A DNA stretch of 39,151 nucleotides. Source: a virus. The notes under the pieces were generated by a model that saw only the letters and a program-made list of their open reading frames with translations, did not search any database and was not told the origin of the DNA. Each line of letters begins with the position of its first letter. Within the stretch, counting starts at the first letter, position 1. Below are positions 4,386 to 26,508 of this stretch, piece by piece. Where the stretch lies: positions 1-39,151 of the IMG/VR virus record IMGVR_UViG_3300020465_000870; one strand, 5' to 3'. The translations under genes and the position numbers were made by a program.

Positions 4386-4481
4386 CTGTAGAGGCACGAC
4401 TCGAACGTGCAAGACCTACCAAGCTAATGATTGATCGGGAGAGAAACAGTCTCCTGTGTTTACCAATTTCACCACTCTACA
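4386..4481 (-). tRNA. tRNA-Asn(GUU)-like gene with long variable arm
   Basis: Read on the minus strand from 4481 to 4386, the sequence folds as a tRNA. The acceptor stem is TGTAGAG/CTCTACA (7 bp) and the D stem is GTG/CAC with GG in the loop. The anticodon stem is GGAGA/TCTCC with loop CTGTTTC. A 27-base variable region follows (plus-strand 4411-4437). The T stem is GCACG/CGTGC with the canonical loop TTCGAGT, and the discriminator is G. No CCA is encoded. The anticodon GTT (4445-4447) reads Asn codons. G73, the U1-A72 pair and the GUU anticodon agree with bacterial Asn identity. The long variable arm (a 5-bp hairpin ATCAA/TTGGT is possible) is a Leu/Ser/Tyr trait, and base 37 is T rather than the usual purine. 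It lies 12 bases downstream of the AsnRS-like gene. Confidence 0.85.
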
Positions 4482-4493
4482 TTGACCCTGAAG

Positions 4494-5297
4494 TTAATCA
4501 GGGATTGCTTGCATGATACGTGTTACACCGATTCCTCCTCCACTTCTAGGAAAGAAATCAAACTCAAGGAACTCTTCTAGTTCTTTCTCAACTCTTTCCT
4601 TACCAAATAATTTGTAAAGTAAGTCAGCATATTGCCCATCAGAGATAGTATGGAATGTATCACGCATCTGTTTCTTATCGGTGCTACGTTCCGCAGAACC
4701 AATAGTTTCCATACCATTTAAGATTACATCAATCTTCTTACTGGTTTCACCATCATCATTTCTTGCCATATTCCAGAATGGTGATGTCCACTCAGGGAAA
4801 TGTGTAATCATACCACGACCAATTGATTTCTCATGATCATGATCTAATTCTTTGGTCTTAAATGCTCCTGCCCAATGCTCATATTTTTTAACATCATATT
4901 CTTGTAAAGGAACACCTACATACTTGCATAATTCCATCTCCATTTTCTCAAGTTCTTCCACACCACCGTGCATTTCAAACTCAAACATTGGGAAGATTAC
5001 TTCATGTCTTCCTTCTACTGGATTTGGTTCTTGACGATATGAGGTGGAGACACAAAAGAAACCGGGTGCTTCTGGATTCTTGAGTAATTCATATTCCAAC
5101 CACATCTGTCCTGTTTGTGGAAGTGGCCAAACTTGTCCATTATATTCATATGTTGCTACAGTTTCAGGATCTTCGCATGCAGCAAGTATACTTAAACGGT
5201 TCTGAGTATGAACTTCAAAAAAACCTTTAGACAAAAAAAATGACCTTAATAGGTCAACGGTCTTTGTATACTTTTTCGGGTCAATGAGACTTGTCAT
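4494..5297 (-). CDS. Class II aminoacyl-tRNA synthetase catalytic core, AsnRS/AspRS-like, without anticodon domain
   Basis: The 267-residue protein has the three class II synthetase motifs. Motif 1 is around FFLSKGFFEVHTQNR (residues 20-34). Motif 2 contains Y-R-Q-E (87-90), followed by RHEVIFPMFEFEM. Motif 3 is SGGGIGVTRI (252-261). GMETIGSAERSTD (195-207) resembles the AsnRS/AspRS glycine-rich flipping region. Full AsnRS is about 460 residues with an N-terminal OB-fold that reads the anticodon; that domain is absent here. Known AsnRS paralogues without it include AsnA-type asparagine synthetases, so Asn synthesis from Asp is an alternative. The neighbouring tRNA-Asn-like gene on the same strand favours a tRNA substrate. 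It is the only protein gene on the minus strand. Confidence 0.9.
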   Translation of the reverse strand: MTSLIDPKKYTKTVDLLRSFFLSKGFFEVHTQNRLSILAACEDPETVATYEYNGQVWPLPQTGQMWLEYELLKNPEAPGFFCVSTSYRQEPNPVEGRHEVIFPMFEFEMHGGVEELEKMEMELCKYVGVPLQEYDVKKYEHWAGAFKTKELDHDHEKSIGRGMITHFPEWTSPFWNMARNDDGETSKKIDVILNGMETIGSAERSTDKKQMRDTFHTISDGQYADLLYKLFGKERVEKELEEFLEFDFFPRSGGGIGVTRIMQAIPD

Positions 5298-5325
5298 TAT
5301 TTTAGGCTAAACTGCATTATTTAGC

Positions 5326-5345
5326 ATTTAGTGAGCTCACTAAAT
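5326..5345. promoter_or_regulatory. Perfect 20-bp palindrome between divergent genes
   Basis: ATTTAGTGAGCTCACTAAAT is a perfect inverted repeat with no spacer. It lies in the 70-base gap between the start of the synthetase-like gene (minus strand) and uvsW (plus strand). Because it sits at the 5' ends of both genes, a terminator role is unlikely. A dimeric operator controlling both directions fits better. No clear sigma-70 boxes are visible around it. Confidence 0.7.
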
Positions 5346-5367
5346 ATCTGTGAATGAACACTATTTT

Positions 5368-25829: not shown

Positions 25830-25954
25830 AAAGGAAAAGGAAAACGAAACCTTTTCAACTTAACTGTTTCGGTTTTTTCGGAATTGTGCTATTATTAAGT
25901 GGTACTGGTTCCGTTATTTTTGTTTATTATGCTATTATGGAGATGATTAAATGA
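25826..25954 (+). CDS. Single-span membrane microprotein
   Basis: This 42-residue protein has a basic N-terminus (MKRKRKTKPF) followed by a membrane helix (CFGFFGIVLLLSGTGSVIFV). This orientation would place the C-terminus across the membrane. It overlaps both the gene before and pyrE by 4 bases. Function unknown. Confidence 0.55.
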   Translation: MKRKRKTKPFQLNCFGFFGIVLLLSGTGSVIFVYYAIMEMIK

Positions 25955-26508
25955 AAGACGAGTTACTCACAATGTTGAAAGATAGTGCCTATAAAAAAGG
26001 TGATTTCACATTATCTTCTGGAAAACAGAGTGAGCATTATATAAATTGCAAACCTGTCACATTATCAGGTAGAGGTTTAGCAATTACTAGTGCCATGCTT
26101 GTTGAGTGTGTAGAGGATGATTCTGTCGCAGTTGCTGGATTAACTCTTGGTGCTGATCCATTAGTATCGGGTGTTGCACTTGTATCTGCTTTAAACAAGG
26201 GATCACTTTCTGGGTTGATAGTTCGTAAAGAACCAAAAGGCCATGGAACTCAAGCATGGATAGAAGGCCCATTACCTGAAAAGGGATCTAAAATTACAGT
26301 CTTAGAAGATGTAGTTACCACAGGTTCATCTGCAATAAAAGCAGTAGAAAAACTTAGAGATGCTGGTTATGTTGTGAATCGTATTGTCAGTATCATTGAT
26401 AGGCAAGAAGATTGTGATTCCTGTGGAATGGGTGAAGCTGATACTGCTTTTAAGGAGGCAGGTCTTGAATTTTATAGTCTCTTTAATTTGGAGGAAATTA
26501 CTAAATGA
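25951..26508 (+). CDS. pyrE: Orotate phosphoribosyltransferase PyrE
   Basis: This 185-residue type I phosphoribosyltransferase makes OMP from orotate and PRPP in pyrimidine synthesis. Visible signatures are FTLSSGKQSEHYINCK (substrate region), GLTLGADPLVSG, RKEPKGHG (flexible loop) and the PRPP motif ITVLEDVVTTGSSA. A GGAG site precedes the start. The length is close to host PyrE. Together with the purine genes and apt it broadens nucleotide supply during infection. Confidence 0.95.
   Translation: MKDELLTMLKDSAYKKGDFTLSSGKQSEHYINCKPVTLSGRGLAITSAMLVECVEDDSVAVAGLTLGADPLVSGVALVSALNKGSLSGLIVRKEPKGHGTQAWIEGPLPEKGSKITVLEDVVTTGSSAIKAVEKLRDAGYVVNRIVSIIDRQEDCDSCGMGEADTAFKEAGLEFYSLFNLEEITK

Follow-up and report, generated by a model that had tools for sequence, protein, structure and literature searches.

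Why would a virus of ocean bacteria carry the catalytic core of a class II aminoacyl-tRNA synthetase, lacking any domain that could read an anticodon, directly in front of a tRNA gene? The two genes lie on the minus strand of IMG/VR virus record IMGVR_UViG_3300020465_000870 (39,151 nt, analyzed at full length and called the window below), with a gap of 12 nt at 4482–4493 between the enzyme, referred to as X, and the tRNA. A first-pass annotation, made from the letters of the window, had the coordinates, the 267-residue length of X, the gap, the GUU anticodon, and G73 right; it overlooked the abnormal U37 and the tRNA-Leu-type body. The pair is real and old, and moves as one unit. It probably serves metabolism instead of being a spare set for translation: in the model that we prefer, with a probability of about 0.42 for the whole, X uses asparagine and ATP as an enzyme for the front end of pyrimidine synthesis, and the tRNA is its asparagine carrier.

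Conservation of the pair

X is found in at least 598 IMG/VR stretches, and also in Prochlorococcus phages P-SSM2, P-SSM5, and P-SSM7, where it is labelled "tRNA ligase" and adjoins the tRNA. A covariance model applied to 303 distinct loci places the tRNA directly behind X in 198, with a median gap of 8 nt; in the window's own clade, the sole loci lacking it are three contigs that end at most 8 nt from the gene. The 151 loci with both neighbors visible represent 106 different gene contexts, with all four orientation combinations. When IMG/VR is searched by the tRNA alone, X lies directly upstream in 138 of 139 informative matches and slightly further in the remaining one, and no orphan tRNA is seen among these 139. 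Hence, the tRNA depends on X, while the converse does not hold. The earlier claim that the two genes form one unit is borne out by the 198 adjacent loci, the 106 contexts, and the zero count of orphans; its companion, that they are the only minus-strand genes of the window, seems reasonable, as the other minus-strand open reading frames (ORFs) overlap longer plus-strand ones.

All tRNA-bearing members fall into one clade of 93 representatives in the tree (SH-aLRT 91), and 76 of the 80 loci from cellular assemblies have no tRNA. Among the four cellular loci that have it, L119, on a 335-kb contig binned as Neomarinimicrobiota, shares an identical X gene with an IMG/VR viral contig (L167), and is likely a mis-binned phage. 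Homologs without the tRNA show that X has a job not needing it. The first-pass annotation had expected that widespread homologs of this kind would break the pair; they do occur, in cells and in some phages, without undoing the pair within the virus clade.

Several observations concern the surroundings of X in other phages. Permuted alphaproteobacterial tmRNA (RF01849/RF04321) is located near tRNA-less copies of X at L178:7545–7861 and L224:7758–8092 (minus strand), which suggests alphaproteobacterial hosts; in the same two phages X is closely followed by a manA RNA motif (RF01745) encoded on the other strand (L178:4927–5133; L224:4925–5122, minus strand). On L333, the contig of L323, no cassette tRNA adjoins X, and a distant tRNA cluster contains two tRNAs that have long variable arms, tRNA-Asn GUU, with the canonical CUGUUAA loop, and tRNA-Thr UGU. 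In jumbo phages, a structured element that a long stem closes is conserved right upstream of X (L083:3830–3915, and the same place in L247); the L083 hairpin was considered as a tRNA and dropped, since it has no cloverleaf fold.

Enzyme X and the pyrimidine pathway

X matches PF00152 with E = 1.4e-14 and corresponds to cyanophage gene cluster T4-GC 194 ("tRNA ligase"). Its scores for asparaginyl-tRNA synthetase (AsnRS), AspRS, LysRS, and the archaeal-type asparagine synthetase AS-AR all fall far short of the curated cut-offs; for the AsnRS family TIGR00457, the score is 17.5 bits against a cut-off of 342.6 bits. The first-pass annotation was right in recognizing a class II synthetase core and in reporting the absence of the N-terminal OB-fold anticodon-binding domain typical of AsnRS: motif 2 (R88, E90) and motif 3 (R260) are present, the protein begins MTSLIDP..., and its AlphaFold2 model (pLDDT 93.5, pTM 0.90) matches only the catalytic half of AsnRS and AspRS. 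Relatives are about 265–317 residues long, and the cellular ones likewise have no OB fold. The model superposes on AsnRS as well as on AspRS; therefore, the amino acid is not decided by the fold alone.

Invariant across 94 sequences, from cyanophage to candidate phyla radiation (CPR) bacteria, are E42, Q64, L67-E68, R88, E90, E106, E108, D190, E197, R204, and R260. Aligned to AsnRS 2xgt, X has the class II motifs and the Asn/ATP pocket, with E42, Q64, L67-E68, E106/E108, and R204 in agreement with AsnRS; the roles of single residues are presumably those established for AspRS and AsnRS. A profile of the 94 members has 2xgt as its top match (E = 2.8e-13); AspRS and others come next, and AS-AR 3p8t reaches 1e-4. 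The pocket is AsnRS-like as judged from these alignments, and asparagine is more likely than not the substrate.

Homologs with about 50–62% identity are found in CPR/Patescibacteria, Bacteroidota (Aureispira and others), Midichloriaceae, Dependentiae, Pasteurella atlantica, and DPANN. At 25 of 76 tRNA-less loci, genes for dihydroorotate dehydrogenase (DHODH), orotate phosphoribosyltransferase (OPRT), or orotidine monophosphate decarboxylase (OMPDC) occur within 3 kb; the order is pyrD, X, pyrF, pyrE-like in Pasteurella atlantica, and X, pyrF, pyrE-like, DHODH-like, phosphoribosyl pyrophosphate (PRPP) synthetase in Bandiella. We compared 20 carrier genomes, picked before the idea of a pathway arose, with 14 control genomes. 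PyrB and CarB over the cut-off are found in none of the 20 carriers and, both, in all 14 controls; PyrC over the cut-off is also seen in 0/20 carriers. The back end is retained, with PyrF in 16/20 carriers and 14/14 controls; thus, X is present where PyrB and CarB are both absent (20/20) and mostly with PyrF. The same 20 genomes yield an AsnRS-family match in 13, AsnB in 12, and GatB in 16. Hence, X is not the AsnRS in most of them, and the candidate role of replacing a missing AsnRS in cells was dropped. In L145, a member of candidate division SR1, the X homolog is interrupted by an in-frame stop codon, in keeping with the use of TGA for glycine in SR1; in-frame TGA is also present in AsnRS and GatB of this genome.

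The viral branch shows the same neighborhood in part. Among phages with the tRNA, the order is DHODH-like, X, tRNA, OPRT-like in L172 and L175; DHODH-like, X, tRNA in L086; X, tRNA, PRPP synthetase in L238; and X, tRNA, ORF, pyrE, purM in L039. Also beside the cassette are a DHODH-like gene in L092, OPRT-like genes in L220 and L296, and PRPP synthetase in L241 and L268. The window has a pyrE gene outside the cassette, a putative functional partner in the proposed pathway; close homologs of it among named cyanophage isolates occur only in P-SSM2, P-SSM5, and P-SSM7, the same three that have X. Overall, the link of X to the pyrimidine pathway is well supported, and X likely works in pyrimidine synthesis.

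The gene for X has a further conserved feature. A hairpin followed by eight U spans codons ~14–22 in 82/82 genes of the cyanophage clade and 81/81 genes of a second clade; redrawing of synonymous codons gives expected counts of 3.5 and 2.7, respectively, i.e., about 6 of 163 rather than 163 of 163. Variants hold the stem with differing sequences (GACCUAUUAAGGUC, GAGCGUUUACGCUC, GACCGAGUUACGGUC), and at least seven U are kept in 131 of 134 distinct copies. As far as such sequence comparison goes, the hairpin is conserved beyond codon constraint. The UTP-sensitive pyrBI attenuator relies on an intrinsic terminator whose action is suppressed when a ribosome follows; the hairpin in X resembles an attenuator and, by analogy, could provide pyrBI-like attenuation.

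The tRNA and the layout of the cassette

The window tRNA has a class II cloverleaf fold with acceptor strands UGUAGAG/CUCUACA, a 3-bp D stem, the anticodon stem-loop GGAGA-CUGUUUC-UCUCC, a long variable arm with a stem, a T arm, and G73; GUU occupies positions 34–36 and is followed by U37. The four-base anticodon "gttt" given by ARAGORN was rejected, as the loop is of normal length (7 nt) and the stem shows covariation. Rfam has no family for the window at the gathering score. Across 28 diverse copies, pairing is kept in 99.7% of paired cells, 148 double changes are seen, and each of the five helices covaries; therefore, the structure is not due to chance.

The anticodon is GUU in 126 of 127 distinct copies, U1-A72 is present in 125 of 127, and G73 in all complete copies; CCA is encoded at 101 of 192 complete loci. 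The sole copy with another anticodon, L304:3868–3963, has GUC (Asp). G73 and G34-U35-U36 form the bacterial Asn identity set, U1-A72 is a determinant for GatCAB, and A73 is the Leu determinant (PMC9976931). The tRNA has the GUU, G73, and U1-A72 of an elongator tRNA-Asn, but its body is of the tRNA-Leu type, with a matching D arm, a long variable arm, and, by alignment, A15-U48, G18G19, and A20a; it is not a tRNA-Leu, having G73 throughout instead of A73. Nor does it have the class I body, U33, and purine (t6A) 37 of an elongator tRNA-Asn. U33 is kept in 98/127 copies, whereas position 33 deviates in 29/127, compared with 0/163 ordinary tRNAs from the same loci; position 37 is a purine in only 10/127 and a non-purine in 117/127, compared with 162/163 and 1/163, respectively, in the ordinary tRNAs. 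The design thus appears contradictory, with a full Asn identity set on a Leu-type body and a loop that breaks ribosomal rules.

Since X has no anticodon domain, GUU must be held constant by something else, either the ribosome or the host AsnRS/AspRS; the abnormal loop, as read from these alignments, speaks against the ribosome. At L268:4793–4866 and L092:4316–4403, the tRNA shares 18 nt with the 3' end of X, and its excision would truncate the coding RNA; the L268 tRNA has also lost the long variable arm.

The window is a T4-like cyanophage contig with the gene order gp22, gp23, gp3, uvsY, cassette, uvsW, sigma-like factor, gp47, gp46; coordinates are given in Table 1. The cassette leader contains a perfect 20-bp palindrome, ATTTAGTGAGCTCACTAAAT, at 5326–5345, which occurs only once in the window; a plus-strand CTAAATA motif lies at 5340.

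Table 1. Positions of the cassette and related features in the window.
Feature	Position	Strand	Remarks
Enzyme X, 267-aa class IIb synthetase catalytic core (AsnRS-like)	4494..5297, stop codon included	-	PF00152, PHROG 29758
Class II tRNA, anticodon GUU, U1-A72, G73, without encoded CCA	4386..4481	-	
Anticodon loop CUGUUUC	4443..4449	-	GUU = 4447-4445, U37 = 4444
Long variable arm with stem (GAUC/GGUC)	4413..4436	-	
Terminator-like hairpin and U8 run within X, in the 5' part of its coding sequence, TGACCTATTAAGGTCA-TTTTTTTT	5233..5256	-	
Cassette leader between X and divergent uvsW	5298..5349	-	
pyrE of this phage (orotate phosphoribosyltransferase), outside the cassette	25951..26508	+	TIGR00336, 143 bits, cut-off 107

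Proposed function and its alternatives

In the preferred model, X, built on the AsnRS catalytic core, would replace CarAB, PyrB, and PyrC and feed the DHODH–PyrE–PyrF back end, in cells and viruses alike. The chemistry that we infer is Asn + HCO3-/CO2 + ATP -> dihydroorotate, where both Asn nitrogens would become ring N1 and N3, and bicarbonate would supply C2; the ring closure would resemble that of dethiobiotin synthetase, an ATP-driven closure with CO2 between two nitrogens, the likeness being one of proposed mechanism only, as the folds are unrelated. Phage X would then be an auxiliary metabolic gene that bypasses the regulated first steps of the host and supplies pyrimidines for phage DNA. 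The host would make Asn-tRNA on the private tRNA, with GUU and G73 for AsnRS or non-discriminating AspRS, and U1-A72 for GatCAB; the Leu-type class II body and the loop unfit for the ribosome would reserve this Asn-tRNA for X, away from translation. If so, GUU would be kept despite the lack of an anticodon domain, U1-A72 would be kept while the loop drifts, and the tRNA would never occur without X, yet X could occur without the tRNA. The parts of this model differ in strength: that the tRNA works for X instead of the ribosome is an even bet; that X consumes Asn from this particular tRNA is rather doubtful; and the complete tRNA-dependent branch, from host-charged Asn-tRNA on the private tRNA to dihydroorotate made by X from Asn, CO2, and ATP, is slightly more doubtful still. 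Of the options listed by the first-pass annotation, the data favor the one in which the tRNA donates an amino acid to a non-ribosomal reaction.

A number of observations weigh against this model. The tRNA is not obligatory for X, as all cellular carriers do without it, and so do some phages inside the clade (L178, L195, L206, L210, L211, L223, L224); these in-clade contigs have no AsnB that might stand in for it, and no tRNA kept elsewhere is found on the L211 and L224 contigs. A new basic patch for RNA was sought in X of the tRNA-bearing clade and none was found; these proteins are in fact more acidic (median net charge −19 vs −10). Decoding by U37/C33 loops is conceivable, and conservation of GUU is equally expected from decoding. 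On the pathway side, a pyrD, pyrE, or pyrF gene lies within 3 kb at just 14 of 194 tRNA-bearing viral loci; the pyrE of the window is seen without X in six single-cell virus records, which are fragmentary assemblies; sub-threshold PyrC-like matches in four carriers allow for more than one product of X; and many carriers are metagenome-assembled or reduced genomes.

In a rival explanation, in line with the absence of the tRNA from cells and some phages, X is a pyrimidine enzyme independent of tRNA, with the tRNA acting as a decoy that ties up host AsnRS/AspRS (raising free Asn), as a regulator of X, or as compensation for the drain of Asn. The full Asn identity set combined with a poor decoding loop, and the fact that the tRNA is never found without X, are consistent with such roles; a decoy, however, would not obviously require covariation in five helices or an encoded CCA, and we regard this explanation as possible but unlikely. 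Somewhat less likely is that X is a minimal AsnRS charging its own tRNA with Asn via the acceptor end and variable arm, and that the phage uses the tRNA to read AAY codons. The AsnRS-like pocket with class II motifs, the nearly invariant GUU, the strict dependence of the tRNA on X, and a Leu body with G73 that LeuRS should refuse all agree with this, but cellular X lacks the tRNA and tracks pyrimidine genes and the loss of PyrB/CarB, most carriers also have an AsnRS-family match, and positions 33 and 37 violate decoding norms. The orthogonal charging pair suggested by the first-pass annotation fares poorly on similar grounds: obligatory co-occurrence of the PylRS type is not observed, since X often occurs without the tRNA, and the cellular members, devoid of tRNA, PyrB, and CarB, often stand beside pyrimidine genes.

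Two further explanations are improbable. X could be an AS-AR with an accessory Asn tRNA, given the same size, the same lack of an OB fold, and the weak profile match to 3p8t; its pocket, however, differs, AS-AR having the AspRS-like HKQ and LDFE where X has WLE and FEFE like AsnRS. For this reason the AS-AR identity was dropped; moreover, AsnB is already present in 12/20 carriers, and the loss of PyrB/CarB would be unexplained. The other is escape from host anticodon nucleases, by way of an Asn tRNA that resists cleavage and comes with a dedicated charging enzyme. The altered anticodon loop fits what is reported for phage tRNAs (van den Berg et al., 2023; PMC10264068), but the linkage to pyr genes, the cellular family, and the lack of orphan tRNAs would all be unaccounted for, leaving this as improbable as the preceding one.

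Compared with known systems, X shares with AsnRS (class IIb) the catalytic fold, the ATP and Asn pocket residues, and motifs 2 and 3; it differs in having no OB-fold domain, in its low identity (~17% in the structural match), and in that cellular X is found where pyrimidine front-end genes are missing, beside an AsnRS in most genomes tested. AS-AR (3p8t, 1nnh), AsnA, HisZ, PoxA/EpmA, and GluQ-RS are likewise truncated synthetase cores acting in metabolism or modification; to our knowledge, none of these paralogs takes part in pyrimidine synthesis or has a private tRNA. PylRS and tRNA(Pyl) are also a synthetase-like enzyme and a dedicated unusual tRNA side by side, but Pyl reads a reassigned stop codon, while here a sense Asn anticodon is set on a Leu-type class II body next to a pyrimidine-linked enzyme. 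Like ordinary phage tRNAs, the cassette tRNA is carried on a large phage genome; unlike them, it never occurs without X, combines Asn identity with a Leu body, and is abnormal at positions 33 and 37. Thus, the pair fits no known family, as none has all of its defining features represented here; this placement leans partly on the proposed function, and the status as a new kind could fall if X is a plain synthetase. The open-access literature searched contains no description of such a pair, in agreement with the first-pass annotation, or of such a pyrimidine route; the paper describing P-SSM7 merely lists "tRNA ligase."

The pair is carried by hundreds of ocean viruses of bacteria. If X indeed takes the place of carbamoyl-phosphate synthetase, aspartate carbamoyltransferase, and dihydroorotase, CPR bacteria, Bacteroidota, endosymbionts, and ocean viruses would share an unrecognized alternative to a textbook pathway regarded as near-universal, and the existence of bacteria that lack PyrB would be explained. 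The viral branch would then represent a new kind of auxiliary metabolic gene, one that bypasses the feedback-regulated step of the host. Glu-tRNA serves as a metabolic carrier for heme, a parallel for a tRNA in nucleotide synthesis; a tRNA kept solely for an enzyme such as X would be a new use of tRNA.
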